Origin: Pseudomonadota bacterium
GTDB lineage: Bacteria; Pseudomonadota; Alphaproteobacteria; SP197
NCBI GenBank assembly: GCA_027592745.1
Contig: JAQCLG010000004.1
Span: 1-53,320, forward strand
DNA: 53,320 nt
Direction of reading: 5' to 3'
In this document: piece by piece, positions 1,669 through 40,276 of the stretch
Layout: each line of letters opens with the position of its first letter
Numbering within the stretch: the stretch's first letter is position 1
Notes under the pieces: model-generated
Databases searched by the model: none
The model's input: only the letters and a program-made list of their open reading frames with translations
Told to the model about the DNA's origin: nothing
Program-made: the position numbers and the translations under genes

Positions 1669-1670
1669 CC

Positions 1671-2759: not shown

Positions 2760-2762
2760 CGA

Positions 2763-6594: not shown

Positions 6595-6613
6595 AGCCGC
6601 CCCGCCGAATTGT

Positions 6614-8425: not shown

Positions 8426-8485
8426 GCAGGACCGCTACCATGGCTTGAAGCCGACATCGGGGCGGCATGTTCAGGAGCGTGCATC

Positions 8486-10269: not shown

Positions 10270-10355
10270 ATCCGATCCGGGGCCTCTCCGGCGCTCTGTC
10301 CTCTTGATCTTTGCCGTGGCGGAACGCAGCGTAGGCGGGCCAACCGGAGCGGCTC

Positions 10356-10982
10356 ATGGGCAGGAAGCTGATCGAGGACATCGTCGTGCCGGCGCGCGAG
10401 GCGCGTGCCGTGGTGGTGCACAAGGGCCAGTTCCTGCGCATCGTCGACATGGAGGGCGAGCAAGTCGCCGACATCGTCTTCTACAATGCCGAACGGCTCA
10501 CGGAGACCTACTCCATGGCCCATTCGGTCTATCTCAACATGCTCCAGGGCACCGGCGACATCCGCATGGTCAAGACGCTCTGGTCGAGCCCGCCCCATGA
10601 ACAGGTGATGATGACGGTGACCGACGATCCGGTCGCCTGCCATTGCCTGGCGCTGGGCACCTGCTGCTCCAGCAGGGTCTATGACGTGCTCTACGGCGAA
10701 CCCGGCCATGCCAGCTACGCGACGAGCCTGGCCCGCGCCCTGGCGCCCCACGGCGTGCCGGCCAACCTGCCCGATGTCTTCAACGCCTTCATGCCCTTCG
10801 ACCCCGAACGCTGGTATGCCGGCGACCCGAAGTTCCGTTCGCCGCCGACGCAGCCCGGCGACTACCTAGAGCTGCGCGCCGAGATCGACGTGCTGGTCGG
10901 CGTCTCGGCCTGTCCCAGCGACCGCACGCCGACCAACGGATTCAAGCCGACGCCGCTGCGCGTTCAGGTATTCTCCGGCTGA
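10356..10982 (+). CDS. DUF1989 / urea carboxylase-associated family protein, second copy
   Basis: A 208-residue paralogue of the DUF1989 gene at 357-953. Shared marks include EGEQVADIVFYN near residue 33, TQPGDYLELRAEIDVLVGVSAC-type C-terminal text and the SACPSD.TPTNG signature; a CC pair near residue 108 is specific to this copy. In characterised systems two DUF1989 proteins act together as a carboxyguanidine deiminase (CgdAB), but here the copies are 9 kb apart on opposite strands. It sits between the GntR regulator and the CocE hydrolase, in one direction with short gaps, suggesting shared control. The chemistry is inferred. Confidence 0.85.
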   Translation: MGRKLIEDIVVPAREARAVVVHKGQFLRIVDMEGEQVADIVFYNAERLTETYSMAHSVYLNMLQGTGDIRMVKTLWSSPPHEQVMMTVTDDPVACHCLALGTCCSSRVYDVLYGEPGHASYATSLARALAPHGVPANLPDVFNAFMPFDPERWYAGDPKFRSPPTQPGDYLELRAEIDVLVGVSACPSDRTPTNGFKPTPLRVQVFSG

Positions 10983-11004
10983 ACTTTTCTGGAAGGACGA
11001 CCGC

Positions 11005-17420: not shown

Positions 17421-17441
17421 AACGCATCGTTGCGATGCGTT
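17421..17441. promoter_or_regulatory. Perfect palindrome upstream of the ABC operon
   Basis: A nine-base inverted repeat, AACGCATCG (17421-17429) and CGATGCGTT (17433-17441), has a three-base TTG spacer. It lies 30 bases after the AI-2E stop and 139 bases before the permease start, just upstream of a promoter-like pair of hexamers. It could be an operator for the transporter operon or a terminator hairpin for the preceding gene; no T-tract follows, which favours an operator. Confidence 0.5.
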
Positions 17442-17455
17442 CAAGCAATACGGAC

Positions 17456-17483
17456 TTGCCAAGCAAACTTGCATCCTTACGAT
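17456..17483 (+). promoter_or_regulatory. Candidate sigma70-type promoter for the ABC operon
   Basis: TTGCCA at 17456-17461 and TACGAT at 17478-17483 are separated by 16 bases, within the spacing of housekeeping promoters. The site is 97 bases before the first permease start and directly after the palindrome. The surrounding 100 bases are visibly more AT-rich than the coding sequence. Confidence 0.45.
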
Positions 17484-17579
17484 ATGCGCAATCCCGGCAA
17501 AAAAACGGGGCTGACAAAACGTGTGCGGCGACAGCGCGGCGCGCGGTGCGCGCTGCTGGGGACCTGGGAGCAAGAGGCG

Positions 17580-18527
17580 TTGTTCAAGCTGATCGCAAAG
17601 CGGCTGTTCGTCGGCCTGATCACCTTGCTGGCGATTTCCGTCATCGTCTTTGCCGGCACGGAAATCCTGCCGGGCGATGTCGCGCAGGCCGTGCTGGGAC
17701 AGGCGGCGACCGAAGAGACGCTGGCTGCGCTGCGCGCGACCCTGGGCCTCAACGAGCCGGCCTACGTGCGTTACTTCATCTGGCTCGGTAAATTCCTGAC
17801 CGGCGATCTGGGCGTCGCGCTGACCAACGGCATGCCGCTGGACGGGATCGTCGGCCAGCGCCTGACCAACACGATCTATCTGGCGCTTTATGCGGCGGTG
17901 GTCGCCCTGCCGCTGGCACTGGGCCTGGGGCTCCTGTCGGCGGCCTGGCCGGAAAGCACGTTCGACCGCGTGGTTTCCTCGGTGACGGTCTTCTTCATCT
18001 CCATTCCCGACTTCGTGATCGCCCTGATCCTGGTGCTGATCTTCGCGGTCGAACTGGGCTGGTTCCCCTCGATCAACCCGCGACCGCGCTGGAGCGACTT
18101 CTTCCCGACGCTGGGCGCGATGTTCCTGCCGATGCTCACGCTGGTCCTGTCGGTGCTGGCGCACATCATCCGCATGACCCGTGCGGCCGTGCTCGACGTG
18201 CTCAAGCAGGCCTACATCGAGATGGCCCTGCTCAAGGGCGTGCGGAAGTCGCGCATCATTCTCAAGCATGCCATCCCCAACGCCCTGGGGCCGATCGTCA
18301 ACGTCATTGCGCTGAACCTTGGCTACCTGATCAGCGGTGTCGTCATCGTCGAGGTCGTCTTCAGTTATCCGGGCCTCGGCCGCCTGATGGTCGATTCCGT
18401 CGTCTTCCGCGACGTGCCCCAGATCCAGGTCGTGGCGATGGTGTTCTGCGCCTTCTACGTGTCGCTCAACATCCTTGCCGATGTCGGCGCCATCATGGCC
18501 AACCCGCGACTGAGGTACGCCAAGTGA
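17580..18527 (+). CDS. ABC transporter permease, DppB type
   Basis: The first membrane subunit of a dipeptide/oligopeptide-type importer, with six helices. The EAA cytoplasmic loop reads AYIEMALLKGVRKSRIILKHAIPNAL near residues 215-240. I chose the TTG at 17580, which puts the first helix at the usual place after FKLIAKRLF and gives 315 residues; ATG codons at 17484 and 17430 would add basic, low-complexity residues not expected in the family. GGGAG and AGAGG precede the TTG. Its stop overlaps the next permease by four bases. It should work with the other permease, the fused ATPase and probably the binding protein at 13121-14728. Confidence 0.9.
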   Translation: MFKLIAKRLFVGLITLLAISVIVFAGTEILPGDVAQAVLGQAATEETLAALRATLGLNEPAYVRYFIWLGKFLTGDLGVALTNGMPLDGIVGQRLTNTIYLALYAAVVALPLALGLGLLSAAWPESTFDRVVSSVTVFFISIPDFVIALILVLIFAVELGWFPSINPRPRWSDFFPTLGAMFLPMLTLVLSVLAHIIRMTRAAVLDVLKQAYIEMALLKGVRKSRIILKHAIPNALGPIVNVIALNLGYLISGVVIVEVVFSYPGLGRLMVDSVVFRDVPQIQVVAMVFCAFYVSLNILADVGAIMANPRLRYAK

Positions 18528-22207: not shown

Positions 22208-22268
22208 AGCAAATCATCCTTCTGCGGAATCGCTTCGCGATTGCGCAGAAGGATGTGAATCCGCTCTA
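22205..22268. repeat. Long palindromic intergenic element with TAGAGC ends
   Basis: A nested inverted repeat fills the gap between two convergent genes. Outer arms are TAGAGC (22205-22210) and GCTCTA (22263-22268); the inner arms are CATCCTTCTGCG (22215-22226) with CGCAGAAGGATG (22244-22255), and AATCGC with GCGATT around a TTC loop. The arms even overlap the ends of both genes by a few bases. It can act as a bidirectional terminator and looks like a dispersed repeat; a related element is at 46334-46395. Confidence 0.85.
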
Positions 22269-23687
22269 GAGGCAGCGGGGGCGCAGGCCATCCGCGCTGT
22301 ACATGCCGCTCTCCAGCGCCTGTGCCACCCGGAAGACCGCCTTGTCGTCGCAGGGATTGCCGACGATCTGCAGGCCGGTCGGCACACCGTCGGGGGCAAT
22401 GCCGGAAGGCACCGACAGCGCCGGGCAACGGCTGAAGACGTTGAAGGGAAAGGTCATCACGACCTGCTGCACCGAAGCCTGCCGCCCGTCGACCGCGACC
22501 GGGTTCTCCCAGTCGCGGCAGTCGGCGCCGATGCTGGTCGTGCCCACGGTCGGGCAGAGGAAGGCGTCGTGGCGCGCAAGCTCCGGGCCGAACTGCGCCC
22601 ATGCCGCGCCGTAGGCCTTCATCGCCTCGTGGAACATGCGCGGCGTGACGCCGGCGTTCTGATCGGCAAAGAGCCGGGTGTAGTCGCAGACCAGGTCGGG
22701 ATGGTTGTCGGCTGCATCGCGGAATTCGTCGGCATAGATCATGCCGCCCCACCTGCCTGCCATGCGATAGACCGCGTCGGCCCAGGGCGTGGCGATCTCG
22801 CTGACGATGGCGCCGGCCTCCTGCAGCCGCGCGATGGCCGCGCGGGTGTTGGCCTGCACCGCCTGCGAGACGGCGTAGACGCCCAGGTCCATCGACCAGG
22901 CGATCCTCATGCCCCTCACGTCCGGCGGGGTTGCGGGAATGCGCATGCGCTGGGGCAGGGTGGCGTGGTCGCGGGCATGGGGGCCCGACATGACGTTCTG
23001 CATCAGCGCCGCGTCTGCTGCCGTGCGCGTCATCGGGCCGATGTGGAAGAACATGTCCATGGCGACCTCGGGGCTGCCGGGGTTGCGTCCGTAGGGCGGC
23101 TTGTAGCCGGCGATGCCGCACATGGCCGCCGGCATGCGGATCGATCCGGCGCTGTCCGAGCCGGTCGCCAGGGTCGTGGTGCCCGATGCGACTGCCGCGG
23201 CCGCCCCGCCGGAGGAGGCACCGCTGGTGATGGCGGTGTTCCAGGGGTTGCGCGTCACGCCATGGAGGCGCGAGGTACAGGTCCAGGGCCAGACGAACTC
23301 CGGACAGGTCGTCAGCGCGTGGACGATGGCGCCCGCACGCACCAGCCGCGCGACCGAGGGGTTGGTGTGGTCGGCGATGTTGTCGGCAAAGACGAGCGAG
23401 CCGAAGGTGCGCGGTTTTCCCTTCATCGCGGTGTCTTCCTTGACCGCCAGGGTCAGGCCCTCCAGCCGGCGGGGCCGCCCTTCGGTCTTCATGTAGCGCG
23501 CCTCGGCCCTGCGCGCGGCGGCGCGGGCCTCGTCGAAGAAGGTACAGGCCAGGGCATTGATCCGGGGTTCGACCGCTTCGGCACGCGCGATCTGGGCATC
23601 GAGAAGTTCAAGCGGCGAGAGCGTGCGGGCGCGGAAGGCGGCAAGGGCCTGGGTGGCGGGGAGATAACAAAGGTCGAGGTCGCTCAT
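22266..23687 (-). CDS. Amidase (amidase-signature family)
   Basis: A 473-residue amidase-signature enzyme that hydrolyses a carboxamide to acid and ammonia. The Ser-cisSer-Lys triad is visible: VKED with Lys83, GASSGG with Ser158 and GSDSAGSIRMPA with nucleophile Ser182. There is no signal peptide, so it is cytosolic. It is 22 bases upstream of the DUF4010 gene's end on the same strand and converges with the secreted-protein gene. The substrate is not evident; in this setting an imported small amide is plausible. Confidence 0.95.
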   Translation of the reverse strand: MSDLDLCYLPATQALAAFRARTLSPLELLDAQIARAEAVEPRINALACTFFDEARAAARRAEARYMKTEGRPRRLEGLTLAVKEDTAMKGKPRTFGSLVFADNIADHTNPSVARLVRAGAIVHALTTCPEFVWPWTCTSRLHGVTRNPWNTAITSGASSGGAAAAVASGTTTLATGSDSAGSIRMPAAMCGIAGYKPPYGRNPGSPEVAMDMFFHIGPMTRTAADAALMQNVMSGPHARDHATLPQRMRIPATPPDVRGMRIAWSMDLGVYAVSQAVQANTRAAIARLQEAGAIVSEIATPWADAVYRMAGRWGGMIYADEFRDAADNHPDLVCDYTRLFADQNAGVTPRMFHEAMKAYGAAWAQFGPELARHDAFLCPTVGTTSIGADCRDWENPVAVDGRQASVQQVVMTFPFNVFSRCPALSVPSGIAPDGVPTGLQIVGNPCDDKAVFRVAQALESGMYSADGLRPRCL

Positions 23688-25012: not shown

Positions 25013-27055
25013 TCACAGCAGCTTCCGAACGAACTTCTCCGACCAGCGGCGGGCGGAGACCTTCTCCTCGCCGTACCAGGCATCGACCTCGGCCTCGTGG
25101 TGGATGTGGCCGGCGGTCGACCATTGGCGGGTACGCACGTCGATGCGCACGCGCCAGTCGCCGCGCGCCAGGCCGATCGACTGGTCGAAGCTGGCGCTGG
25201 CGCAGAGCGGGTCGTCGTCGTGGATGGTGTAGCAGCGGTCCAGGGTGTGGGCGATCTCCAGCCCGATGGGATCGACGACATAGGTGCCCGCGACCCCGAA
25301 GAATCCGCCCTCGCAGGAGAGCCTGCTGGCGATCTCGCCCGAGACCAGGTCGCGCTCGATCGTGCGGCGGAAATGGCCCGGCTTGACCACGGTCACCGGC
25401 ACGCCGGGGGCCTTCTCGGGTTCGGCGAAGGCGGGCAGGGCGGTATCTTCCTCGCGCGGCGCACGCACCGGCAGCGTGAGCGTGGAGGCGCCGGTGGTCA
25501 GGGTCAGGGTGGCGGCCTCCGACGCCGGCCAGGCCAGGGGCCAGTAGCAGGTCGAGATCGCCAGGCGGATGCGATGGCCGGCCGGGAAGGCGTGGGCGAT
25601 GTCGTTCAACTGCACCCGCACGGTATAGGCCTTGCCGGGCTTCAGCGCGCGGGGTTTCTCGTGGCTGTCGCGGTGGGTCAGGTTGAGGACGGCGTAGGTC
25701 ACCCGCGTCGAGGCGCCGTCGGGAGCGATGTCGTTGAGACGCACCGCGACCTGGGCGACCGGCTTGTCCGAGGCGATGCGCAGCTCGGTGACCGGCGCGC
25801 CGAGGATCTCCAGGCGTTCGGCCAGGGGTTCGGTTTCGAAGCACAGGCTGCGGCCGTCCTCGCTCCTCTGGTCGGGCGGCAGTTCGCCGGCCATGGCAAA
25901 GCCGCACCACTCGCCGCCGTCGACGCCGGTGGAGGCCGGCGAGCGGAAGGCGATGGCGCTGCGCCGGCGCTTGGCGGACTCCAGCCTGCCGTTGCCGTTT
26001 GCATGCAGCACGCGGTCTTCGATGCGCGGCGAGGGCCAGCGGTCCTCGGCGACCCAGCGGCCCGGGCGCTCGGCATAGTTGGTCGCGGGCGGCACGCTCT
26101 CCTGCATCCAGACGCGGTAGTCCGGCTCGTTTTCGATACCGTTCGAGACATCCTTGAGCCAGCGGTCCCACCAGCGCAGGGCGTCCTGCAGAAATCCCAT
26201 GGCCGGGGCGGGCGAACCGTCATGAGGATAGATGTGCGCCCAGGGGCCGACGATGCCGCGGCGCGGTCCCTTGAGTCCGGCGAGCAGGCGCGGGATGGCG
26301 TTGGAATAGCCGTCAGCCCAGCCGCCGATGGCATAGACCGGTACCTCGATGGCTTCGTAGTTCTCACAGACCGAGCCGTGTTTCCAGTAGGCGTCGCGGG
26401 TCTGGTGCTTGAGCCAGGTCAGCGCCCAGGGCTTGTGGGAAGCCAGCCGCTCCTGCCACATCGAGAGCCAGCGCTCGCCGACGATCTGAGGGTCGGGCGG
26501 CGGGTTGTTGAGCGCCATCATGGTTGCCGACCACATCTGGTTGGTATCGAGCAGGCAGCCGCCCATGAAGTGGATGTCGTCGTTGTAGCGATCGTCGGTC
26601 GAGCAGACCGTGAGGATGGCCTTCAGCGCCGGCGGGCGCATGGCCGCGACCTGCAGCGCGTTGAAGCCGCCCCAGGACTTGCCCATCATGCCGACGCTGC
26701 CGTCGCACCAGGGCTGGGCGGCGAGCCAGGCGATGACCTCGGCGCCGTCGTCGAGTTCGGGGACCTGCAGGTATTCGTCGTTCAGCAAGCCGTCGCTGTC
26801 GCCCGCGCCGCGCATGTCGACACGGATGCAGGCATAACCGTGACCGGCGAAATACCTGTGCATGGGTTCGTCACGCGGCCGCGTGAAATCGCGCTTGCGA
26901 TAGGGGATGTACTCCAGGATCGCGGGCACGGGGTTCTGCTCGGCATCCTCGGGCATCCAGATGCGTGCGGCCAGGCGTGCACCGTCCTTGAGTGTGATCC
27001 AGGCGTTCTCGATCTCGCGCACGCTGTTGGAAAACCGCTCGACGATTCGCGCCAT
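25013..27055 (-). CDS. CocE/NonD-family hydrolase, second copy
   Basis: A 680-residue paralogue of the hydrolase at 11005-13053 with the same order: alpha/beta hydrolase domain (GKSWGG with Ser128, GWADGY with Asp248, GPWAHIYPH with His274), then a C-terminal jelly-roll with NLTHRDSHEKPRAL. Both copies share blocks such as PVPAI.EYIPYR.RDFT and TRDAYWKHGSV, so they come from a duplication or parallel acquisition. The ATG at 27055 gives the same N-terminus as the paralogue minus about ten residues. It diverges from the first cupin gene across 81 bp. The substrate is probably an ester or N-acyl compound. Confidence 0.92.
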   Translation of the reverse strand: MARIVERFSNSVREIENAWITLKDGARLAARIWMPEDAEQNPVPAILEYIPYRKRDFTRPRDEPMHRYFAGHGYACIRVDMRGAGDSDGLLNDEYLQVPELDDGAEVIAWLAAQPWCDGSVGMMGKSWGGFNALQVAAMRPPALKAILTVCSTDDRYNDDIHFMGGCLLDTNQMWSATMMALNNPPPDPQIVGERWLSMWQERLASHKPWALTWLKHQTRDAYWKHGSVCENYEAIEVPVYAIGGWADGYSNAIPRLLAGLKGPRRGIVGPWAHIYPHDGSPAPAMGFLQDALRWWDRWLKDVSNGIENEPDYRVWMQESVPPATNYAERPGRWVAEDRWPSPRIEDRVLHANGNGRLESAKRRRSAIAFRSPASTGVDGGEWCGFAMAGELPPDQRSEDGRSLCFETEPLAERLEILGAPVTELRIASDKPVAQVAVRLNDIAPDGASTRVTYAVLNLTHRDSHEKPRALKPGKAYTVRVQLNDIAHAFPAGHRIRLAISTCYWPLAWPASEAATLTLTTGASTLTLPVRAPREEDTALPAFAEPEKAPGVPVTVVKPGHFRRTIERDLVSGEIASRLSCEGGFFGVAGTYVVDPIGLEIAHTLDRCYTIHDDDPLCASASFDQSIGLARGDWRVRIDVRTRQWSTAGHIHHEAEVDAWYGEEKVSARRWSEKFVRKLL

Positions 27056-27059
27056 GTCA

Positions 27060-27087
27060 TTGTCCCTGATGTGGTCGCCGCTATGAT
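27060..27087 (+). promoter_or_regulatory. Candidate promoter of the first cupin gene
   Basis: TTGTCC (27060-27065) and TATGAT (27082-27087) are 16 bases apart, close to the sigma70 consensus, 50 bases before the cupin start. The second cupin gene has a near-identical arrangement at 27773-27800. Confidence 0.6.
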
Positions 27088-27136
27088 GCGCTGCCCCGCC
27101 GCCTGCGTCGATGCGGGGAAAATTCAGGGAGCCCGA

Positions 27137-27739
27137 ATGCGACAGTTGATGGAGACCGCAGCGGTCTGGCTGGCGGCACGCCCGGAAGATGTTTGTCGTC
27201 GCGCGGCCGCGGCCATGCGATGCGAACGGCCCGCGCGTCCCATCGCCCCCGTGGCCAGCACCACCGCCAGCCGCGACCTCGCGACGCTGGTCGCCGATCC
27301 CCAAGGCGAACTGATGCAGGCATTCGTAGCGGCGACGCCGGCCTTTGCCTGGCGTGAGCCGCCCCAGAAGGATGCTGGCAACTATCTGGTCGGGCGCAGC
27401 GCAGGCAATGTCATCATCGGGCCGGAGGGCGCCTTTCCCGCGGAGGACCTGCGCTTTGGCGCCTTCATGATCTCGCCCGAGACGGTCTATCCCCTGCATG
27501 CCCATGCAGCCGAGGAACTCTACATCGTGATCGGCGGCTCGGGCCGCTGGTGGATCGACGATGCGCCCTACAGCCCGCGGCAGCCCGGCGATGTCGTCCA
27601 CATTCCTTCGTGGACGCCCCATGCCATCCGCACCGATGCCGAACCGGTGTTGACACTCTGGGTCTGGATGGGCGACGTCAGCTTCGAATCCTATCGCTTC
27701 GAACCGGCCGGTTTCGATGCCCGGGGCATCCCGATCTGA
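27137..27739 (+). CDS. DMSP-lyase-family cupin, copy 1
   Basis: A 200-residue protein whose C-terminal half is a cupin of the dimethylsulfoniopropionate-lyase type (DddQ/DddW/DddL group and the wider DLL set). The metal motif is HAHAAEELY (His121, His123, Glu127) with Tyr129 and a later His162 (WTPHAIRT), followed by the family block TLWVWMGD. The N-terminal helical half differs strongly from the neighbour while the cupin half is about 60 percent alike by eye. GGGAG precedes the ATG at 27137. Many members of this family do not act on DMSP, so lyase activity is not proven. Confidence 0.85.
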   Translation: MRQLMETAAVWLAARPEDVCRRAAAAMRCERPARPIAPVASTTASRDLATLVADPQGELMQAFVAATPAFAWREPPQKDAGNYLVGRSAGNVIIGPEGAFPAEDLRFGAFMISPETVYPLHAHAAEELYIVIGGSGRWWIDDAPYSPRQPGDVVHIPSWTPHAIRTDAEPVLTLWVWMGDVSFESYRFEPAGFDARGIPI

Positions 27740-27772
27740 GCCGTCGCGGTCCCGAGAAGCCCCCCGATCCAG

Positions 27773-27800
27773 TTGTGCCGGAAACCTGCGCAGCTATCAT
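27773..27800 (+). promoter_or_regulatory. Candidate promoter of the second cupin gene
   Basis: TTGTGC (27773-27778) and TATCAT (27795-27800) are 16 bases apart and 47 bases before the start codon. Hexamers, spacing and the preceding GC nucleotides (CGC or CAGC before TAT.AT) copy the arrangement upstream of the first cupin gene. Confidence 0.6.
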
Positions 27801-27847
27801 GCACCAACCCGCTGGCAGACGCGGTAGCGGGCAGGAGAAGAGCACCC

Positions 27848-28453
27848 ATGCAGAGATTCGTGGAGGCCTGCGCGACCTGGCTGGCCTCGCGCCCGGAGGC
27901 TGCCTGCCGCCGGGCGGCGCTTGCCCTTGGTGAGGCTGCCATGATCGGCGGCGCTGCCGTGACGGACGAGACGCCGGCGGTCATGGCACACCTGGAACCC
28001 GCGTTGACCGCAGTCCGTGGACCACTGGCCGATGCTCTGCGCGCCGCGGGGGACGAGATTGCCTGGTTCGAGTCGCGCAGCGGCGAGGTCGAGCGCCACA
28101 TGGGCGGGCGCAACGCCATGTCCCAGGTGGTCGGCCCCGACTCGCCGCTTGTCTCCGAAACGGTTCGTTTCGGCACCTTCCTCATTGCGCCCGGAACCTG
28201 CTATCCACGCCACGCCCACAGTGCCGACGAACTCTACGTCGTGGTCGGCGGCAGGGGTCGCTGGTGGATCGGGGACAGCCCCTATCGCAGCTACGGACCC
28301 GGCGAGGTCGTTCACGTGATGCCCTGGCAAAAACATGCCATCCGCACCGACGAAGCACCGCTGTTGACGCTGTGGGCCTGGATGGGCGATTTCGACTTCA
28401 AGAACTACCGCATGGAGCCCGACGGCTTCGATGCGGACGGACAGGCGATCTGA
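27848..28453 (+). CDS. DMSP-lyase-family cupin, copy 2
   Basis: A 201-residue cupin, tandem paralogue of the gene at 27137-27739. The metal motif is HAHSADELY (His122, His124, Glu128), with Tyr130 and His163 (WQKHAIRT), then LLTLWAWMGDFDF. The residues match those used by DddQ-like lyases, where the Tyr can act as base, but the substrate pocket cannot be judged from sequence alone. GGAGAA precedes the ATG at 27848. It ends 17 bases before the FAD/GcvT demethylase gene and is probably cotranscribed with it, linking this cupin to a methylated amine or betaine-like substrate. Confidence 0.87.
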   Translation: MQRFVEACATWLASRPEAACRRAALALGEAAMIGGAAVTDETPAVMAHLEPALTAVRGPLADALRAAGDEIAWFESRSGEVERHMGGRNAMSQVVGPDSPLVSETVRFGTFLIAPGTCYPRHAHSADELYVVVGGRGRWWIGDSPYRSYGPGEVVHVMPWQKHAIRTDEAPLLTLWAWMGDFDFKNYRMEPDGFDADGQAI

Positions 28454-28470
28454 AACACAGGGAAGACGTT

Positions 28471-30930
28471 ATGGCAGGCAAGGTTCCAGGCAAGGCAAAG
28501 GTCGTCGTCATCGGCGGTGGTATCGTCGGCACGTCGATCGCCTATCACCTGACCAAACGCGGCGTTTCCGACGTGCTGCTGCTTGAGCGCGACCAGCTGA
28601 CCAGCGGCACGACCTGGCATGCGGCGGGCCTGGTGGGCCAGCTGCGGCCCAGCCACAACCTGACCAAGCTCGCCAGTTATGCGGTCGAGCTTTATCCGCG
28701 CCTGGAGGAGGAGACCGGGCAGGCGACCGGCTTCAAGCAGGTCGGCTCGATCACGCTCGCCCAGACGCCGGAGCGCTTCCACGAGCTCAAGCGTTCGGCC
28801 AGCATGGCCAACGGCTTCGGCGTCGAGGTCCGCGTGCTGACCCCGGCGCAGGTCGCCAAACTCAATCCCGTGATCCGGGTCGACGACATCGTCGGCGCCG
28901 TGCACATGCCGAAAGACGGCCAGACCAACCCGATCGACACGACCCAGGCGCTGGCGCGCGGCGCGCGGATGGGCGGGGCGACCATCGTCGAGAAATGCAC
29001 GGCAACGAAGCTGGTGAAGAAGGGCCAGAACATTGTCGCCGTGGAGACCGACCAGGGGGTCATCGAGGCCGAACAGGTCGTGCTGGCCTGCGGCATGTGG
29101 ACGCGCCAGATCGCTGCCTCGGTCGGCCTGACGGTGCCGCTGCAGGCGGCCGAGCACATGTATATCGTCACCGAGCCGATGGAGGGCCTGCCCGCCGACC
29201 TGCCGGTGCTGCGCGACTACGACAGCTACATCTACATCAAGGAGGACGCCGGCAAGCTTCTGGTCGGCGGCTTCGAGCCGGTCGCCAAGCCCTGGCAGAC
29301 CGACGGCATCCCCGACGACATCTCCTTCCTGCACCTGCCCGAGGACTGGGACCACTTCCAGATCCTGATGGACGGCGCGCTCAACCGGGTGCCGGCGATG
29401 GAACATGCCGGCGTGCGCACCTTCTTCAACGGCCCTGAGAGCTTCACGCCCGACAACCGCTACCACATGGGCCGCGCGCCGGGTTTCGGGAACCTGTTCG
29501 TGGCCGCCGGCATGAACTCCATCGGCATCGCCTCGGGCCCCGGCATCGGCAAGGCGCTGGCCGACTGGATCGTCGACGGCGAATCGCCGCTCGATCTCGC
29601 CGACGTCGACCTCATGCGCGCCGAACCCTTCCAGCGCGCCCGCGACTATCTCGCCGACCGCACGGTCGAGACCCTGGGCCTGCTCTATGCCATGCACTGG
29701 CCCTACTTCCAGCCGACCACGGCGCGCGGCGCCCGCCGGCTGCCCTATCACGATCGCTGCAAGGCCGCCGGCGCGGTCTTCGGCGACGTCCAGGGCTGGG
29801 AACGGCCGCTTTACTATGTCGAAGGCGATGAACCGCGCGAGATGGCCTACGGTTATGGGCGCCAGTCCTGGCACGACGCCACGGCGCGCGAGGCAAGGGC
29901 GACCCGCGAGGCGGTCGCGCTCTACGACCTCTCGACCTTCGCCAAGTTCAAGGTCCAGGGTGCCGATGCGATGGCGGTGCTCAACCGCCTTTGCACCGCC
30001 AACGTCGACGTCGAGGTCGGCAAGGCGGTCTATACCCAGATGCTGAACCACAAGGGCGGCATCGAGGCCGACCTCACCGTCACGCGCCTGGCCGAAACCC
30101 GTTTCATGGTCGTCACCGGCACCGCCGTGCGCCAGCACGACCGCTCCTGGATCGAGCGCAACATCCCTGCCGAGGCCCGCGTCGCCCTGACCGACGTCAC
30201 CTCGGGCTACGCCGTGCTCGGCCTGATGGGGCCGAAGTCGCGCGAACTGCTTGCCGGCCTCACCGCGGCCGACCTCTCGCCCGAGGCCTTCCCCTTCGGC
30301 GGCAGTCGCGAACTGGAGGTCGCCTACGCCCCGGCGCGCGCCCAGCGCACCAGTTATGTCGGCGAACTGGGCTACGAGCTCTACGTGCCGACCGAATTTG
30401 CCCAGCACCTGCACGAGCGGCTGTGCGATGCGGGCGAGGCCTTCGGCCTGCGCCTGGCCGGCATCTTCTGCCAGGACGCCCTGCGCATGGAGAAGGGCTT
30501 CAAGCACTGGGGCCACGACATCGGTCCGGACGATACACCACTGGAAGCCGGCCTCGCCTTTGCCGTCGCCTGGGACAAGCCGGGCGGCTTCATCGGCCTG
30601 GAGGCTCTACAGGCCAAGCGCGAGGCCGGTCTCGACCGGCGCCTCGTCAACTTCACCCTGCCGGGCTGCGAACCCGGCGCGCCGCTGCTGCTCCACGAGG
30701 AGCCGATCTGGCGCGACGGCGCGATCGTCGGCACGACCACTTCAGGCGGTTTTGCCTTCACCCTGGGCTGCCCGATCAGCATGGGCTACGTGAAAAACCG
30801 GGACGGCAAGGCCGACCGCGACTGGATCATGGGCGGCACCTACCAGATCGAGGTCGCTGGCGAGCGCTTCGCAGCCACCCCCAGCCTCGGCGCGCCCTTC
30901 GACCCCAAGGGCGAGCGCATGCGGGCCTGA
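28471..30930 (+). CDS. FAD-dependent oxidoreductase with GcvT domain (dimethylglycine/sarcosine dehydrogenase type)
   Basis: An 819-residue two-domain enzyme. Residues 1-420 form a DAO-type FAD domain with VVVIGGGIVG (11-20) and TTWHAAGLVG, where His50 matches the covalent flavin site of dimethylglycine dehydrogenase. Residues 430-819 are a folate-binding GcvT/aminomethyltransferase domain (DLSTFAKFKVQG, TSYVGELGYELYVP, and a GcvT C-terminal barrel). Such enzymes oxidise an N-methyl group and pass the one-carbon unit to tetrahydrofolate. The ATG at 28471 lies 17 bases after the cupin gene. The exact methylated substrate is unknown. Confidence 0.93.
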   Translation: MAGKVPGKAKVVVIGGGIVGTSIAYHLTKRGVSDVLLLERDQLTSGTTWHAAGLVGQLRPSHNLTKLASYAVELYPRLEEETGQATGFKQVGSITLAQTPERFHELKRSASMANGFGVEVRVLTPAQVAKLNPVIRVDDIVGAVHMPKDGQTNPIDTTQALARGARMGGATIVEKCTATKLVKKGQNIVAVETDQGVIEAEQVVLACGMWTRQIAASVGLTVPLQAAEHMYIVTEPMEGLPADLPVLRDYDSYIYIKEDAGKLLVGGFEPVAKPWQTDGIPDDISFLHLPEDWDHFQILMDGALNRVPAMEHAGVRTFFNGPESFTPDNRYHMGRAPGFGNLFVAAGMNSIGIASGPGIGKALADWIVDGESPLDLADVDLMRAEPFQRARDYLADRTVETLGLLYAMHWPYFQPTTARGARRLPYHDRCKAAGAVFGDVQGWERPLYYVEGDEPREMAYGYGRQSWHDATAREARATREAVALYDLSTFAKFKVQGADAMAVLNRLCTANVDVEVGKAVYTQMLNHKGGIEADLTVTRLAETRFMVVTGTAVRQHDRSWIERNIPAEARVALTDVTSGYAVLGLMGPKSRELLAGLTAADLSPEAFPFGGSRELEVAYAPARAQRTSYVGELGYELYVPTEFAQHLHERLCDAGEAFGLRLAGIFCQDALRMEKGFKHWGHDIGPDDTPLEAGLAFAVAWDKPGGFIGLEALQAKREAGLDRRLVNFTLPGCEPGAPLLLHEEPIWRDGAIVGTTTSGGFAFTLGCPISMGYVKNRDGKADRDWIMGGTYQIEVAGERFAATPSLGAPFDPKGERMRA

Positions 30931-31002
30931 GCCGCCGGCCGCTTGTGGCCCCGGCCAGCCGGTGCCAAGAATGGCATGCCGGCGGGGCGGCAGGGGACGG
31001 AC

Positions 31003-31428
31003 ATGGTCGACGTGGTAAGGGAAGTCCGGCTGAAGGCGCAGGCCGATGCGGTGTGGACCCTGATCGGCGGATTCAATGCACTGCCCAACTGGCATCCCGC
31101 CGTGCTATCGTCGGATCTCTCGCAAGACGATGGCGTGACGACCCGCCATCTGGTGATCGTGGGACGTATCCGGCTCGCCGAGCGCCTGCTGTCCCATGAC
31201 GATGCGGCCCGCACCTACCGCTACACGATTGCCGACGGACCGTTGCCCGTAGAGGGTTATGTCTCGACCGTGACCGTTGCCGACCAAGGCGACGGAACCG
31301 CCACGGTGCGCTGGTCGGCTTCCTTCGAGCCTGCCGGAGCACCCGCGGACGTCGCGGTCGAAGCGATCCAGGGCATCTACGATTCGGGACTGAATAGCCT
31401 CGCGGACCGGTTCGGCCGCGCGGCCTGA
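31003..31428 (+). CDS. SRPBCC (START/polyketide-cyclase-like) family protein
   Basis: A 141-residue protein of the SRPBCC ligand-binding superfamily: VREVRLKAQADAVWTLIGGF at the N-terminus and NWHPAVLSSDL nearby are typical of the helix-grip fold with a hydrophobic pocket, and the C-terminal helix ends GLNSLADRFG. I took the ATG at 31003; longer readings add residues unlike the family. It follows the demethylase gene by 72 bp in the same direction. It may bind a small hydrophobic or amphipathic ligand; no enzymatic role can be read. Confidence 0.82.
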   Translation: MVDVVREVRLKAQADAVWTLIGGFNALPNWHPAVLSSDLSQDDGVTTRHLVIVGRIRLAERLLSHDDAARTYRYTIADGPLPVEGYVSTVTVADQGDGTATVRWSASFEPAGAPADVAVEAIQGIYDSGLNSLADRFGRAA

Positions 31429-32824: not shown

Positions 32825-32928
32825 GGGGGCGGGACGCTATGCCGAACACGGTTGGCTGTCGACCGCTTCGGCCGCTGGCGCGGCCGGCCGATGGCGGCTA
32901 TGACGGGGGAAACCATCCGGGGGGCTGC

Positions 32929-33711
32929 GTGTCCTTTCAGACCATCCTGTTCGCATGCACAGACGGCGTGGCCACGATCACGCTGAACCGTCCCGAACGG
33001 CTCAATGCCCTGACCAACACCATGTTCCGCGAGCTGGGCAAGGCGCTCGACCGGGTTGCGGCCGATCCCGGCCTGCGCGCCGTGCTGCTGACCGGGGCGG
33101 GCCGCGGCTTCTGTGCCGGCGCCGATCTGGCCGGCGACGGCATCGACGCCGACGCCGATCTCGATGACGCGCTGGTCACGCTCTACAACCCCACCGTCCT
33201 GCGCCTGCAGACCTTTGAGCGGCCCATCGTCTGCGCCGTCAACGGCGTTGCCGCCGGCGCCGGCTGCAACCTGGCGCTGGCCTGCGACATCGTGGTCGCG
33301 GGACGGGCCGCTTCCTTCATGCAGGCCTTTGCGCGGATCGGCCTGATCCCCGACGCCGGCGGTACCTTCCTGCTGCCCCGCCTGGTCGGCCGCGCCCGCG
33401 CCATGGGCCTTGCCATGCTGGCCGAAGGGTTGCCCGCCGAAACCGCCGCCGAATGGGGCCTGATCTGGCGCTGCGTCGAGGACGACGCCCTAATGGCCGA
33501 GGCTGGCGCGCTCGCGGCAAAACTCGCCAAGGGGCCGACCAGGGCCTACGCGCTGATCAAGCAGGCCATGGCCGCTTCGCTCGACAACGGCCTTGAGGAA
33601 CAGCTCGGTGTCGAGGCACGCCTGCAGGGCGAGGCCGGCCGGTCGGCCGACTACGCAGAGGGTGTCGCCGCCTTCCTGGAGAAGCGGCCGGCGCGTTTCC
33701 AGGGCCGTTGA
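32929..33711 (+). CDS. Enoyl-CoA hydratase/isomerase family protein (PaaG-like)
   Basis: A 260-residue crotonase-family enzyme that handles acyl-CoA thioesters. The oxyanion-hole segments GAGRGFCAGADL and GVAAGAGCNLALACDI are clear, and the downstream IGLIPDAGGTFLLPRLVG has the Asp common in PaaG-type isomerases/hydratases. I chose the GTG at 32929, which gives the standard length; an ATG at 32839 would add 30 unlike residues. It precedes the tartrate-dehydrogenase-type gene by 38 bp and is probably cotranscribed with it. Confidence 0.92.
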   Translation: MSFQTILFACTDGVATITLNRPERLNALTNTMFRELGKALDRVAADPGLRAVLLTGAGRGFCAGADLAGDGIDADADLDDALVTLYNPTVLRLQTFERPIVCAVNGVAAGAGCNLALACDIVVAGRAASFMQAFARIGLIPDAGGTFLLPRLVGRARAMGLAMLAEGLPAETAAEWGLIWRCVEDDALMAEAGALAAKLAKGPTRAYALIKQAMAASLDNGLEEQLGVEARLQGEAGRSADYAEGVAAFLEKRPARFQGR

Positions 33712-33749
33712 GGCCGCCCGGACAAGAACAGGAGCTCGAGGACAGGATC

Positions 33750-34805
33750 ATGAAGCACCGTATTGCGGTCATCGCCGGCGACGGCATCGGCAGGGAGGTC
33801 ATGCCCGAGGGTATGCGTGCGCTCGAGGCGGCCGGCGCGAAGACCGGCGTTTCCTTCGAATGGACCGAGTTCGACTGGTCCTGCGAGGTCTTTGCCAGGA
33901 CCGGCCGCATGATGCCGGAGGATGCGCTCGACCAGTTGCGCGCCTTCGACGCGATCTACCTGGGTGCCGTGGGTTTTCCCGGCGTGCCCGACCACATCTC
34001 GCTCTGGGGCCTGCTGATCCCGATCCGGCGGGCCATGGACCAGTACGTCAACCTGCGCCCGGTGCGGCTGTTCGAGGGTGTGCCCTGTCCGCTGGCCAAC
34101 CGCACGCCTGAGGAGATCGACTTCTGGGTCGTGCGCGAGAACGTCGAGGGCGAATACAGCCAGATCGGCGGGCGCCTCCATTCGGGCACCGACCAGGAAA
34201 TGGCCCAGCAGGCCAGCGTCTTCACCCGGCACGGCACCGACCGCATCCTGCGCTACGCCTTCGACCTGGCGCAGAGCCGGCCGAAGAAACACCTGACCAG
34301 CGCGACCAAGTCCAACGGCATCTTCCACACCATGCCGTTCTGGGACGAGCGCGTGGTCGAGGTTGGCAAGGATTATCCCGAGGTGAAGGTCGACAAGTAC
34401 CACATCGACATCCTCACCGCCCATTTCGTGCGCCATCCCGACTGGTTCGACGTCGTCGTGGGTTCGAACCTGTTCGGCGACATCCTCTCGGACCTGGGGC
34501 CTGCCGTGGCCGGCACCATCGGCATCGCACCCAGCGCCAACATCAATCCGGCCGGCACCGCACCCAGCATGTTCGAGCCGGTCCACGGCAGCGCGCCCGA
34601 CATCGCCGGACGCAACATCGCCAATCCCATCGGCATGATCTGGTCGGGCGCGATGATGCTGGAGCACCTGGGCCACCCCGAGGCCGCCGCCCTGATCATG
34701 GCCGCCATCGAGGACACCCTGAAGCAGCCCGCGGCCATGACCCCCGACATGGGCGGCAAGGCCTCGACCACCGAACTGGGCAAGGCGATCGCCGAGAAGA
34801 TCTGA
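33750..34805 (+). CDS. Tartrate / D-malate dehydrogenase-type decarboxylating enzyme
   Basis: A 351-residue NAD-dependent beta-decarboxylating dehydrogenase of the isocitrate/isopropylmalate superfamily, tartrate dehydrogenase (TtuC/DmlA) branch. Marks are IAVIAGDGIGREVMPEG at the start, WGLLIPIRRAMDQYVNLRP near residue 90, the substrate segment VRENVEGEYSQIGGR and VVGSNLFGDILSDLGPA with metal-binding Asp residues. It would convert D-malate, tartrate or a related hydroxy acid to pyruvate-level products. AGGA precedes the ATG at 33750. It is the last gene before the toxin-antitoxin operator. Confidence 0.92.
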   Translation: MKHRIAVIAGDGIGREVMPEGMRALEAAGAKTGVSFEWTEFDWSCEVFARTGRMMPEDALDQLRAFDAIYLGAVGFPGVPDHISLWGLLIPIRRAMDQYVNLRPVRLFEGVPCPLANRTPEEIDFWVVRENVEGEYSQIGGRLHSGTDQEMAQQASVFTRHGTDRILRYAFDLAQSRPKKHLTSATKSNGIFHTMPFWDERVVEVGKDYPEVKVDKYHIDILTAHFVRHPDWFDVVVGSNLFGDILSDLGPAVAGTIGIAPSANINPAGTAPSMFEPVHGSAPDIAGRNIANPIGMIWSGAMMLEHLGHPEAAALIMAAIEDTLKQPAAMTPDMGGKASTTELGKAIAEKI

Positions 34806-36755: not shown

Positions 36756-39101
36756 ATGCAATTCGCCATCGGCCAGCCGATGCCGCGCACCGAGGACCCG
36801 CGCCTGGTCACCGGACGCGGGCGCTTTACCGATGACGTCGTGCTGCCGGGCCAGCTCTACGGCCATGTCCTGCGTTCGCCCTATGCCCATGCCGATGTCG
36901 CCGGCATCGATGCCGACGAGGCACGCCGGGCGCCGGGCGTGGTCGCCGTCTATACGGTCGAGGACCTCGACCGCGCGGGCATCGGCGACCTGCCGGTGCT
37001 GGTGCGCCCGAAGAACCGCGACGGCAGCGACCTGTTCTGCCCGCCGCGCCCGGTGCTGGCCCGCGGCCGGGTGCGCCATGTCGGCGAGCCGGTCGCCTTT
37101 GTCGTCGCACAGAGCCACATGGCCGCGCGCGATGCCGCCGAGCTGATCGCGGTCGACTACGAACCGCTCGATGCCATCGTCGAGACGGCGCGCGCCCGCG
37201 ACGGCAATGCCGTGCAGCTCTGGCCGCAGGCGCCGGGCAATGTCGCGCTCGACTGGTCGATCGGCGACGAGGCGGGCACGGCGGCAGCCTTCGAGAAGGC
37301 GGATGCGGTGGTCGAGATCGCGCTCGTCAACAACCGCGTCGTGGTGGCGCCCATGGAACCGCGTGCCGCACTGGGCATCTGGGATGGCATCGACAGGCGC
37401 TACACCCTGCATGCCTGTTCCCAGGGCGCACACAAGATGCAGAAGCCGCTGGCCGAACATGTCCTGAAGGTTGCCCACGGCGACCTGCGGGTCGTCACCG
37501 GCGATGTCGGCGGCGCCTTCGGCATGAAGAACTTCCTGTTCCACGAATACGTTCTGGTGCTCTTTGCCGCCCGCCAGCTCGGCCGTCCGGTGAAATGGAC
37601 CGGCGACCGCAGCGAGGCCTTCGTCTCCGATACCCAGGGGCGCGACCATGTCACCAGGGCGGCGATGGCCTTCGATGCGCAGCGGCGCATCCTGGGGCTG
37701 CGGCTCGACGTCACGGCCAACATCGGCGCCTATCTCTCGCAATTCGCGCCTTTCGTGCCGACCTCGGCCTCGACCGGCGTGCTTTCTGTCGTCTACGACA
37801 TCCCGCAGATCTTCGCCCATGTCCGCCCGGTCTATACCAACACCGTGCCGACCGACGCCTACCGCGGCGCCGGACGGCCGGAGTCGAACTATGTGGTCGA
37901 ACGCCTGATGGCCAGGGCGGCGCGCATCTTTGGCCTTCAGCGCGACGAACTGCGCCGGCGCAATGCCATCGCGCCCGAGCAGTTCCCCTACCAGACCCAG
38001 GTCGGCTTCATCTATGACTGCGGCGAATTTGCCCGCCACATCGCCATGGCGCGCGAGCTCGCCGATCTCGACGGCTTCGAGGTGCGCCGGGCCGAGGCGA
38101 TGGGACGCGGCCGCCTGCGCGGCCAGGGCTTCACCTGCTACGTCGACCGCTGCGGCGGCGGCGGCCCCGACATGGCCGACCTGCGCATCGATGCCATGGG
38201 CAATGTCACCCTGTTCGTCGGCACCCAGACCAACGGCCAGGGCCACGAGACGACCTATGTCCAGCTCGTCTCGGCACGGCTCGGGATCGACCCCGGCAAG
38301 GTGCGCGTGGTCCAGGGCGATACCGACGTTATCGCCTTCGGCTCGGGCAACGGCGGCTCCAACTTCGCCGCTGTGGGGGCAAGTGCCGGCAACGTCGCGG
38401 TCGATCGCGCCATCGAGAAGGGCAGGCGGATCGCCGCCAACCTGCTCGAAGCCGCCGATGTCGACATCGCCTTCGAGAACGGCAGCTTCGAGATCGTCGG
38501 CACCGACCGCAGGGTGAGCCACGCCGAGGTGGCCCGCGCCGCCTACGATCCCGCGAAACTGCCCCGGGGCGAGGATGTCGGCTTCCAGGTCATCGGCACC
38601 TTCAAGCCGCAAGGCCCCGGCTTTCCCAACGGCAGCCATGTCTGCGAGGTCGAGATCGACCCCGAGACCGGCGTGCTTGAGTTGCTGCGTTACGTCACGG
38701 TCGACGACTTCGGCAACGTGCTCAATCCCCTGCTGGTCGACGGCCAGATCCACGGCGGCATCGGCCAGGGCCTGGGCCAGGCGATCGCCGAGGAGACGGT
38801 CTACGATCCCGAGAGCGGCCAGCTGCTCACCGGTTCGTTCATGGACTACCGCCTGCCGCGCGCCGGCGACCTGCCGATGATCGAGACCCACCGCATCGCC
38901 GTGCCCACGGCGCGCAACCCGCTGGGCGTCAAGGGCAACGGCGAGTGCGGCGCCATCGCCGCGCCACCCGTGGTGATGGACGCCATTCTCGACGCCCTTT
39001 CGCCGCTGGGCATCGAACATCTCGACATGCCGGCCACACCGATGAAGATATGGCGCGCGATCCGCGACGCCCGAGACGCCCAGGAAAGGATGCAGCCATG
39101 A
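36756..39101 (+). CDS. Molybdopterin-binding large subunit, xanthine dehydrogenase/CoxL family (form II)
   Basis: A 781-residue molybdenum hydroxylase large subunit. The N-terminal aldehyde-oxidase hammerhead (residues 15-130, ending VGEPVAFVVA) precedes the molybdopterin domains (GDVGGAFGMKNF at 249-260). The active-site loop is AYRGAGRPE (368-376), the form II pattern; true CO dehydrogenases have AYRCSFR. Glu730 in GNGECGAIA is the catalytic base. The medium (FAD) and small (2Fe-2S) subunits are not encoded beside it, which is unusual. AGGAGAGG precedes the ATG. It overlaps the M24 gene by ATGA, so the two are coupled. Probably a hydroxylase of an aldehyde or N-heterocycle. Confidence 0.92.
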   Translation: MQFAIGQPMPRTEDPRLVTGRGRFTDDVVLPGQLYGHVLRSPYAHADVAGIDADEARRAPGVVAVYTVEDLDRAGIGDLPVLVRPKNRDGSDLFCPPRPVLARGRVRHVGEPVAFVVAQSHMAARDAAELIAVDYEPLDAIVETARARDGNAVQLWPQAPGNVALDWSIGDEAGTAAAFEKADAVVEIALVNNRVVVAPMEPRAALGIWDGIDRRYTLHACSQGAHKMQKPLAEHVLKVAHGDLRVVTGDVGGAFGMKNFLFHEYVLVLFAARQLGRPVKWTGDRSEAFVSDTQGRDHVTRAAMAFDAQRRILGLRLDVTANIGAYLSQFAPFVPTSASTGVLSVVYDIPQIFAHVRPVYTNTVPTDAYRGAGRPESNYVVERLMARAARIFGLQRDELRRRNAIAPEQFPYQTQVGFIYDCGEFARHIAMARELADLDGFEVRRAEAMGRGRLRGQGFTCYVDRCGGGGPDMADLRIDAMGNVTLFVGTQTNGQGHETTYVQLVSARLGIDPGKVRVVQGDTDVIAFGSGNGGSNFAAVGASAGNVAVDRAIEKGRRIAANLLEAADVDIAFENGSFEIVGTDRRVSHAEVARAAYDPAKLPRGEDVGFQVIGTFKPQGPGFPNGSHVCEVEIDPETGVLELLRYVTVDDFGNVLNPLLVDGQIHGGIGQGLGQAIAEETVYDPESGQLLTGSFMDYRLPRAGDLPMIETHRIAVPTARNPLGVKGNGECGAIAAPPVVMDAILDALSPLGIEHLDMPATPMKIWRAIRDARDAQERMQP

Positions 39102-40276
39102 AGAAACCCGCCGCCGTCCCCGCCAACGAGTTTCCCGAGCGCCGCGAGAGCGCGCGCAAGGCGGCCAAGGCAGCCGGCCTTGCCGGTCTGCTGGTCTGCT
39201 CGCGCGGCGGCGGCACCACGGACCGCTACGGCGACATCAAGTACTTCACCAACTTCTACACGCGCTTCCCCTACATCCCCGACGTTCCGGGCGAGTGGAC
39301 GGCGCGCGCCCATGCCTTCCTCATCCTTCCCATCGAGGGCGAGGAGATCCTGGTCGCAGACGACAAGCCCAAGCGCGACGAGGAAATGGCGATCGAGGAG
39401 CGCATCGTCACCGGCGACGTCATCGCCTCCGTGCTCGAAAGCCTGAAGAAGGCGGAACTGACCGAGGGCCGCATCGGCATCGTCGGCGCCGACACCCTCT
39501 CCTGGAGCGCCCACAGCCAGCTCGCAGCAGCTTTCCCGGAGGTCACCTGGGTGCCCGCCGACGAGATCGCCAAGGAGATCCGCAAGGTCAAGTCGAAGGC
39601 CGAGATCGAGAAGCTGCGCTACGCCTCCTGGGTCGGCTGCCGCGCCACCGAGGCCATGCTGGAGACCGCCGTTGCCGGCAAGACGCATGGCGAGGTCGTG
39701 GCCGCCGGCATGGAGGTGCTCGCCAGACACGGCGGCATTCTCTACAACAACTTCATGTCCTCGGGCCGGGGCGGCAACAACCCGACCAGCGTCGCCACCA
39801 GCTTCCCCACGTGGGGCAGCCCGGAGGTGCTGGAGGACGGCGACTGGTTCCACTGCGGCATCTCGGGCGCGGTCGACGGCTACTACTTCGACCACGCCCG
39901 CTCCAAGCCGATCGGCAACGGCACCGCCGAGCAGATCCGCGTCTTCGAGGCGCCGATGCTCGCCGTCCAGGCCGCCATGGCCAAGGTGCGCCCCGGCGTC
40001 ACGGCCTCCGAGGTCGCGCGCGCCGGCCGCGAGAAGCTCGAGGAACTGGGTTTCGAGTTCGAGGGCGCCTTCAAGGGTTTCGGCCACGGCGTCGGTCTGG
40101 GCTGGGATTCGCCCTGGCTGATCGAGAGCGACCACACCGTGCTGGAAAAGGACATGGTGCTCTGCGTCGAACGCAGCGTGCGCCACATGGGCTACGTCGG
40201 CGATTTCGAGGAGACGATCCTCGTCACCGAGAACGGCTACGAAAAGCTGACCGACGCGCGCGTGAAGTGGTGGTAG
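39098..40276 (+). CDS. M24-family (creatinase/Xaa-Pro peptidase fold) hydrolase with altered metal site
   Basis: A 392-residue pita-bread-fold protein. The N-terminal creatinase-like domain spans residues 1-165 and the M24 domain follows. Of the five usual metal ligands, Asp265 (FDHAR), His330 (GFGHGVG), Glu358 (CVERS) and Glu371/372 (DFEET) are present, but the first Asp position reads HCGIS, with Cys253 in place of Asp, and the later H.xP motif reads WDSP. This resembles the non-peptidase members such as creatinase, ectoine hydrolase (DoeA) and DddP rather than a true prolidase. It is translationally coupled to the molybdoenzyme gene. The substrate is unknown. Confidence 0.85.
   Translation: MKKPAAVPANEFPERRESARKAAKAAGLAGLLVCSRGGGTTDRYGDIKYFTNFYTRFPYIPDVPGEWTARAHAFLILPIEGEEILVADDKPKRDEEMAIEERIVTGDVIASVLESLKKAELTEGRIGIVGADTLSWSAHSQLAAAFPEVTWVPADEIAKEIRKVKSKAEIEKLRYASWVGCRATEAMLETAVAGKTHGEVVAAGMEVLARHGGILYNNFMSSGRGGNNPTSVATSFPTWGSPEVLEDGDWFHCGISGAVDGYYFDHARSKPIGNGTAEQIRVFEAPMLAVQAAMAKVRPGVTASEVARAGREKLEELGFEFEGAFKGFGHGVGLGWDSPWLIESDHTVLEKDMVLCVERSVRHMGYVGDFEETILVTENGYEKLTDARVKWW

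Follow-up and report, generated by a model that had tools for sequence, protein, structure and literature searches.

Two dimethylsulfoniopropionate-lyase-like cupins beside an FAD/GcvT N-demethylase: a putative catabolic locus for methylated onium compounds in a small alphaproteobacterial order

We analysed a contig of 53,320 nucleotides (nt) from an alphaproteobacterial genome (JAQCLG010000004.1, assembly GCA_027592745.1), the whole of which is called the window below. At its centre, two adjacent genes for cupins of the dimethylsulfoniopropionate (DMSP) lyase type precede a gene for a flavin adenine dinucleotide (FAD)-dependent N-demethylase with a GcvT half:

27137-27739, + strand: cup1, DMSP-lyase-like cupin of 200 amino acids; PF16867, 78.8 bits; best PDB match 5cu1 (DddQ), E 1e-15
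27848-28453, + strand: cup2, DMSP-lyase-like cupin of 201 amino acids; PF16867, 88.0 bits; best PDB match 5cu1 (DddQ), E 1e-13
28471-30930, + strand: dimethylglycine-dehydrogenase-like FAD/GcvT N-demethylase of 819 amino acids, starting 17 nt past cup2; PF01266, PF16350, PF01571 and PF08669

This arrangement of two paralogous cupins with catalytic motifs, followed at once by the FAD/GcvT gene, had been described in a sequence-only reading of the same DNA and is borne out by the PF16867 search, the alignments and the domain scan. Both cupins belong to PF16867 (DMSP_lyase), scoring far above its curated cut-off of 27 bits, and a scan of the cupins against NCBIfam returned no model naming a DMSP lyase clade. 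Their catalytic motifs read YPLHAHAAEELY and YPRHAHSADELY, with the distal histidine in PHA/KHA. In RlDddQ, the essential residues are Tyr120, His123, His125, Glu129, Tyr131 and His163 (PMC4437653); all six are kept in both cup1 and cup2, and cup2 residues Y119, H122, H124, E128, Y130 and H163 are invariant in an alignment of 11 rows, cup1 and one cupin of the DddQ clade among them. These six make up the H-H-E-H metal site and the pair of tyrosines in motif 1. A predicted model of cup2 (predicted local distance difference test score 88.2) matches DddQ over the whole chain: the six best Foldseek matches are DddQ structures, with template modelling (TM) scores of 0.61-0.76 over the query (0.76 to RnDddQII), DddK coming next, at an identity to the DddQ structures of about 21-26% in the structural alignments.

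The two cupins are 46% identical to each other. The sequence-only reading had seen diverged N-terminal halves, and this holds on average, columns 1-95 of the alignment being 33% identical and the remaining columns 56%. The first 24 residues, however, are 58% identical, and the divergence is concentrated in columns 25-74 (20%). Compared with the same-genus genome G001, whose single cupin is the ortholog of cup1 (80.5% identity), cup1 has a ratio of non-synonymous to synonymous substitution rates (dN/dS) of 0.21 and the demethylase one of 0.08, both indicating purifying selection. By these sequence tests the window genes look intact and functional.

In the case of the demethylase, the DAO, FAO_M, GCV_T and GCV_T_C domains lie in one chain, which places the protein in the dimethylglycine-dehydrogenase-like family. 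Its best solved relative is the dimethylglycine dehydrogenase of PDB entry 4p9s, which we take to be the rat enzyme (E 4e-147, aligned nearly end-to-end over 4p9s residues 23-795), and it is also strongly related to N,N-dimethylglycine oxidase. Orthologs are 95% identical in G001 and 69% in G002 and G003. The window genome encodes six FAD/GcvT paralogs, so the substrate of this one need not be dimethylglycine.

The window genome (3.85 Mb in 263 contigs) contains four PF16867 matches. Its family and order are represented here by the same 16 species genomes, 15 of which have PF16867, as do 49 of 385 genomes sampled from the class (E 1e-15). The clade of the window cupins, comprising five rows, is supported at 100/100 in a first cupin tree and at 100/98 in a second, and the DddQ structures fall in another clade (100/98, first tree). 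An assignment of the window cupins as DddQ orthologs, together with RpDddQ, RnDddQ2 and RlDddQ, is therefore rejected by both trees. Of the phylogenetic comparison called for by the sequence-only reading, the separation from DddQ could thus be established; the DddW, DddL and DddK clades are unlabelled in the trees because the NCBIfam scan of the cupins supplied no model specific to such a clade. Four loci (L042, L050, L135 and L191) had no cupin row and were left out of the first tree, for which frames were picked by motif; L128 and L175 form long branches there, and in the second tree L088a is on a very long branch, its placement being unsure. Within the clade, the sister of cup1 is the one cupin of G001 (L035; 100/100), and cup2 falls, with weak support, beside single cupins from genus g4 (G008 and G012; 96/45). 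This pattern suggests, though not firmly, an older duplication with loss. A profile of the clade run over the class sample gave 345 and 343 bits for the window cupins, the next best score being 116.5, and a scan of 84,980 named species genomes found four loci at 47-51% identity (G001, G008, G012 and G013) and six more at 29-36%. Judged by these comparisons, the clade is narrow and seen only in one small uncultured order.

Two further genes flank the core genes and proved important for assessing conservation of the locus:

25013-27058, - strand: CocE/NonD (peptidase S15) hydrolase, divergent from the cupin operon; TIGR00976, 257 bits against a cut-off of 66.3
31003-31428, + strand: SRPBCC (Polyketide_cyc2) protein of 141 amino acids, downstream in the same direction; PF10604, 97 bits for 30943-31428

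The window cupin clade is carried by five genomes: that of the window (G000), G001 of the same genus, and G008, G012 and G013 of genus g4. The tandem pair is present in one of the five (G000), and a demethylase directly follows the cupin in two (G000 and G001, the latter with one cupin about 22 nt before the demethylase). The possible module of the sequence-only reading, tandem cupins with the demethylase, is thus not conserved in the order, G001 having a single cupin; the steadier partners are two genes which that reading did not mention. SRPBCC lies 3' of the cupin in all five genomes, directly after it in the three g4 genomes, and the CocE/NonD hydrolase is divergent beside the cupin in four, the locus of the fifth (G008) stopping at a contig edge. 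In G002 and G003 of genus g2, where no cupin of the window clade was found, the 69% demethylase ortholog sits between a divergent CocE gene and SRPBCC. Overall, SRPBCC accompanies the cupin or the demethylase in G001, G002, G003, G008, G012 and G013, the CocE/NonD hydrolase is kept in G001, G002, G003, G012 and G013, and the frame of CocE, cupin and/or demethylase, and SRPBCC is common to genera g1, g2 and g4. With the tandem in one of five genomes, cupin plus demethylase in two of five and the demethylase without cupin in g2, the stable element is therefore the frame from CocE to SRPBCC, with cupin and demethylase as removable fillings. Genes for an ABC transporter, a crotonase, a tartrate-dehydrogenase-type enzyme and a xanthine-dehydrogenase-family protein recur in the block in several relatives. 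At the G013 locus (L042), the cupin (801-1388) is interrupted by three in-frame stops lying close together, and CocE (1474-3514) is split between frames; frameshifts, an assembly error or decay are alternative causes.

This raises the question if the cupin is functionally tied to the CocE/NonD hydrolase and SRPBCC, in a hydrolytic catabolism of esters or amides, the demethylase being an incidental neighbour at genus level. Such a tie would fit the SRPBCC gene directly after the cupin in g4, and the CocE gene divergent beside cupins of two subclades in family f1 (the window locus WIN, L035, L042 and L046; in the other subclade, L047 and L048). It would also fit the demethylase orthologs of G012 and G013, which are located elsewhere, next to another demethylase and to an MTTB gene. 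On the other hand, in G002 and G003 the demethylase fills the slot between CocE and SRPBCC and so belongs to the same frame, by which the idea of a purely genus-level insertion is weakened, and similar pairings arose in other lineages. We regard this explanation as rather unlikely.

Demethylases linked to PF16867 cupins fall into three lineages in the tree, namely the window lineage, that of f56, and one comprising Rhodobacteraceae, G235 and Limibaculum sp. NKW23, and the linked cupins span several cupin subclades. The pairing recurs among distant lineages that differ in both cupin subclade and demethylase lineage, and the suggestion of the sequence-only reading that the cupins are linked to a methylated onium or amine compound, perhaps not to DMSP, is plausible. 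In f56 genomes, the demethylase, a phosphonate-binding-type protein and the cupin are encoded in that sequence on one strand (L125 and L126; L127 is cut by a contig edge). The family of G037 is here called Rhodobacteraceae because the second cupin tree places known DddQ proteins, from Ruegeria and Roseovarius, among its cupins. Its sample comprises 21 loci, the starting locus L187 and 20 fetched from 40 cupin places found with RpDddQ as query; these 20 were taken by similarity to RpDddQ, second copies at the same place and G529 at a contig edge being skipped. The sample is neither random nor independent. Neighbours were scored by tblastn with chosen queries, a demethylase being counted only if the match reached the GcvT half. 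On this basis, a genuine FAD/GcvT neighbour lies no more than about 1.3 kb away at 10 of the 21 loci (L229, which would be the eleventh, has a 25% partial match and was not counted). An MDR dehydrogenase adjoins the cupin in 12 (a thirteenth, in L238, lies 1.5 kb away and has 29% identity), a Rieske oxygenase lies within 5 kb in nine, and an enolase-superfamily gene is present in 11. The linked loci are L236 (8036-12107), L187, L221, L225-L228, L231, L232 and L234, mostly with MDR, enolase-superfamily and carnitine-monooxygenase-like Rieske genes. In L187, the Rieske protein has carnitine monooxygenase as its closest relative (E 2e-58), followed by 3vca, presumably stachydrine demethylase. The cupin of L236, itself part of one of these clusters, shares 76% identity with the crystallised RlDddQ over 136 residues. 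A link of dddQ to an MDR gene has been published (PMC3338564). We found no published link of dddQ to dimethylglycine dehydrogenase in the literature searched, which leaves out most subscription papers and three papers that mention both DddQ and dimethylglycine, and is not proof of absence.

Some observations on these clusters are added here. We do not claim the Rhodobacteraceae enolase-superfamily genes as hydroxyproline-betaine epimerases, as 2pmq/4h2h (HpbD, we assume) are only the seventh to ninth best solved matches, at about 167-190 bits against 683 and 777 for the top matches. In Limibaculum sp. NKW23 (L088), about 11 kb hold two cupins of different subclades, FAD/GcvT, Rieske, MDR and three enolase-superfamily genes and a carboxymuconolactone-decarboxylase-like gene. 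In the family of the window genome, other PF16867 cupins (L033, L034, L036, L043, L050, L205, L207 and L208) lie 1.1-3.7 kb from genes of the MTTB (trimethylamine methyltransferase) family. MTTB is within 5 kb of the cupin in 10 of 91 loci; the window genome alone has 12 MTTB matches, and this proximity is therefore not taken as proof.

To estimate how often a cupin would lie near a demethylase by chance, the expectation was derived from FAO_M genes (0-10 per genome) with a linkage distance of 3 kb. In the class sample 0.81 of 65 loci were expected to be linked and five were seen (P 0.0015; L193 excluded, its genome being outside the expectation). For the Rhodobacteraceae, 0.41 of 21 were expected at the gene density of G037 and 10 were seen (P 2e-11), a value to be read with the loci being related by descent and the search having begun from a linked locus. 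In Rhodobacteraceae the pairing is strong; elsewhere it is suggestive.

Unequal cupins in tandem are also seen among the 20 Rhodobacteraceae loci fetched (L219, L225, L227 and L231), and in Roseovarius nubinhibens ISM dddQ1 and dddQ2 are adjacent (PMC3338564). Such pairs might indicate that one of the two cupins has given up lyase activity and serves as partner subunit or isomerase, the two forming a hetero-oligomer as tandem DddQ1/DddQ2 might. Since every catalytic residue is kept in both window cupins and G001 manages with one cupin, we consider this highly improbable.

A simpler explanation would be that the window cupins are ordinary, if divergent, lyases of DMSP or dimethylsulfoxonium propionate (DMSOP), that the FAD/GcvT neighbour handles other osmolytes, for example in glycine betaine breakdown, and that adjacency reflects a shared osmolyte-catabolism region. 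PF16867 membership, the complete catalytic set and DddQ as closest solved proteins are in its favour, and a crotonase in the same block could in principle serve acryloyl-CoA. Moreover, all tested cupin Ddd enzymes cleave both DMSP and DMSOP (PMC10686828), so that DMSP is not their only substrate. However, the window cupins are well separated from DddQ in both trees, release of dimethyl sulfide (DMS) or dimethyl sulfoxide needs no FAD/GcvT enzyme, and DddQ-type genes themselves adjoin such a demethylase in nearly half of the Rhodobacteraceae loci. The cupin DMSP lyase and lyase-like family is, in addition, said to hold other enzymes with unknown function, going by the title of Lei et al. 2018. 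All in all, we think this explanation unlikely, though it deserves serious consideration.

The reading that we favour, tentatively and at somewhat less than even chances, is that the window holds a locus for the catabolism of an imported compound of the methylated onium type, which probably arrives as an amide or ester conjugate, with the cupins acting as metal-dependent lyases. The genes that would contribute, besides those above, are:

17430-18527, + strand: peptide/opine-type ABC transporter permease 1; PF00528
18524-19408, + strand: ABC transporter permease 2; PF00528
19384-21246, + strand: fused ABC transporter ATPases, an open frame with its start not fixed; ABC_tran in two stretches plus oligo_HPY
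22266-23687, - strand: amidase; PF01425, 255 bits; kept at the same locus in G001, G012 and G013

The peptide/opine-type ABC transporter would import the compound, and the CocE/NonD hydrolase and the amidase would free a small carboxylate bearing a methylated onium group, which is probably nitrogenous. The cupins, as DddQ-type metal-dependent lyases with an H-H-E-H metal site, would break, or by the reverse reaction make, a bond between the beta-carbon and a heteroatom through tyrosine-assisted abstraction of the alpha-proton and beta-elimination. The FAD/GcvT enzyme would then oxidatively strip an N-methyl group and pass the carbon unit to tetrahydrofolate. The chemistry of both enzymes is borrowed here from DddQ and dimethylglycine dehydrogenase, and we infer the activity, the substrate, the order of steps and the participation of both cupins in one pathway. 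DddK, a related cupin DMSP lyase, adds amines to acrylate (PMC12582016), and C-N bond chemistry is therefore within reach of the cupin fold.

Several points weigh against this proposal. Three g4 genomes have the cupin without a demethylase at the locus and two g2 genomes the demethylase without a cupin, so the two enzymes need not serve one reaction sequence. The Rhodobacteraceae cupins belong to another clade, so for cup1 and cup2 they serve as an analogy. Across the class sample as a whole, 62 of 68 loci are unlinked (six linked), and counted by lineage the excess is marginal (three lineages, P 0.049), three of the five linked loci being from one genus. Finally, purified DddQ cleaves DMSP and, more efficiently, DMSOP (PMC10686828), as other cupin Ddd enzymes also do with DMSOP, and the substrate may accordingly be a sulfur compound.

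A more far-reaching version of the onium-compound proposal, which we hold to be improbable, is that DddQ-type cupins in general, including the DddQ now called DMSP lyases, are carbon-nitrogen lyases of methylated ammonium carboxylates, running backwards the addition of amines to acrylate known from DddK, that the linked FAD/GcvT enzyme demethylates the released amine or amino acid, and that DMS release is a side activity. The window would then represent a second, independently assembled version fed by the hydrolysis of esters and amides. The presence of non-DMSP enzymes in the cupin family has been reported before; in the literature searched we did not find the recurring link to amine demethylation. 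The natural substrate of many DMSP-lyase-like cupins may be other than DMSP, arguably also that of DddQ, whose Km is in the millimolar range (22 mM for the R. lacuscaerulensis enzyme; PMC5395565), and ocean surveys count dddQ as a marker of DMS production. The recurrent linkage of cupin and N-demethylase offers a concrete, testable alternative, with methylated ammonium carboxylates as substrates; if true, some of the DMSP cleavage that is deduced from counts of the gene would in fact be nitrogen-osmolyte turnover.

The conserved block continues downstream of SRPBCC with two genes:

32839-33711, + strand: crotonase/enoyl-CoA hydratase (PaaG-like); TIGR02280, 351.3 bits against a cut-off of 345.15
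33708-34805, + strand: tartrate dehydrogenase-type decarboxylating hydroxyacid dehydrogenase; TIGR02089, 553 bits against a cut-off of 470

Elsewhere in the window, the gene at 50210-52486 (+) encodes a protein close to the N,N-dimethylformamidase large subunit (PDB 6lvb, E 2e-156) and to N-acetyl-(R)-beta-phenylalanine acylase (E 2e-133), and may specify another hydrolase of methylated amides or beta-amino acids. The stretch 5779-13053 contains a dienelactone-hydrolase-like gene, an SBP_bac_5 binding protein, a DUF1989 protein with weak likeness to UAAP2 and to the DUF1989 part of trimethylamine N-oxide demethylase, and a second CocE/NonD hydrolase (11005-13053). An M24/creatinase-type gene at 38945-40276 (+) was considered as DddP; this was unsupported, the best matches being Xaa-Pro dipeptidases and 4b28 (DddP) reaching only E 1e-4.

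Among known systems, the family described by Lei et al. 2018 resembles the window cupins at family level, as lyase-like cupins with a function other than DMSP cleavage, by its title. The Rieske quaternary-amine demethylation clusters of the CntA/Stc2 type are like the cupin clusters of Rhodobacteraceae, G235 and Limibaculum, which combine Rieske, FAD/GcvT, MDR and cupin genes; in contrast, the search of the window locus turned up no gene of the Rieske, MDR or enolase-superfamily type. With DddQ of Ruegeria pomeroyi, R. lacuscaerulensis and Roseovarius nubinhibens, the window cupins share the PF16867 fold with its N-terminal helices and the six catalytic residues. The tandem unequal copies of the window have their counterpart in dddQ1-dddQ2 of R. 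nubinhibens ISM, and the demethylase neighbour in that of the Rhodobacteraceae DddQ relatives, whereas CocE, SRPBCC and amidase take the place of the MDR, Rieske and enolase-superfamily neighbours of DddQ-type loci. The 819-residue enzyme differs from dimethylglycine dehydrogenase in being one of several paralogs in its genome, and shares with it and with N,N-dimethylglycine oxidase (PDB 4p9s and 1pj5) the full FAD (DAO), FAO_M and GcvT architecture in an end-to-end alignment.

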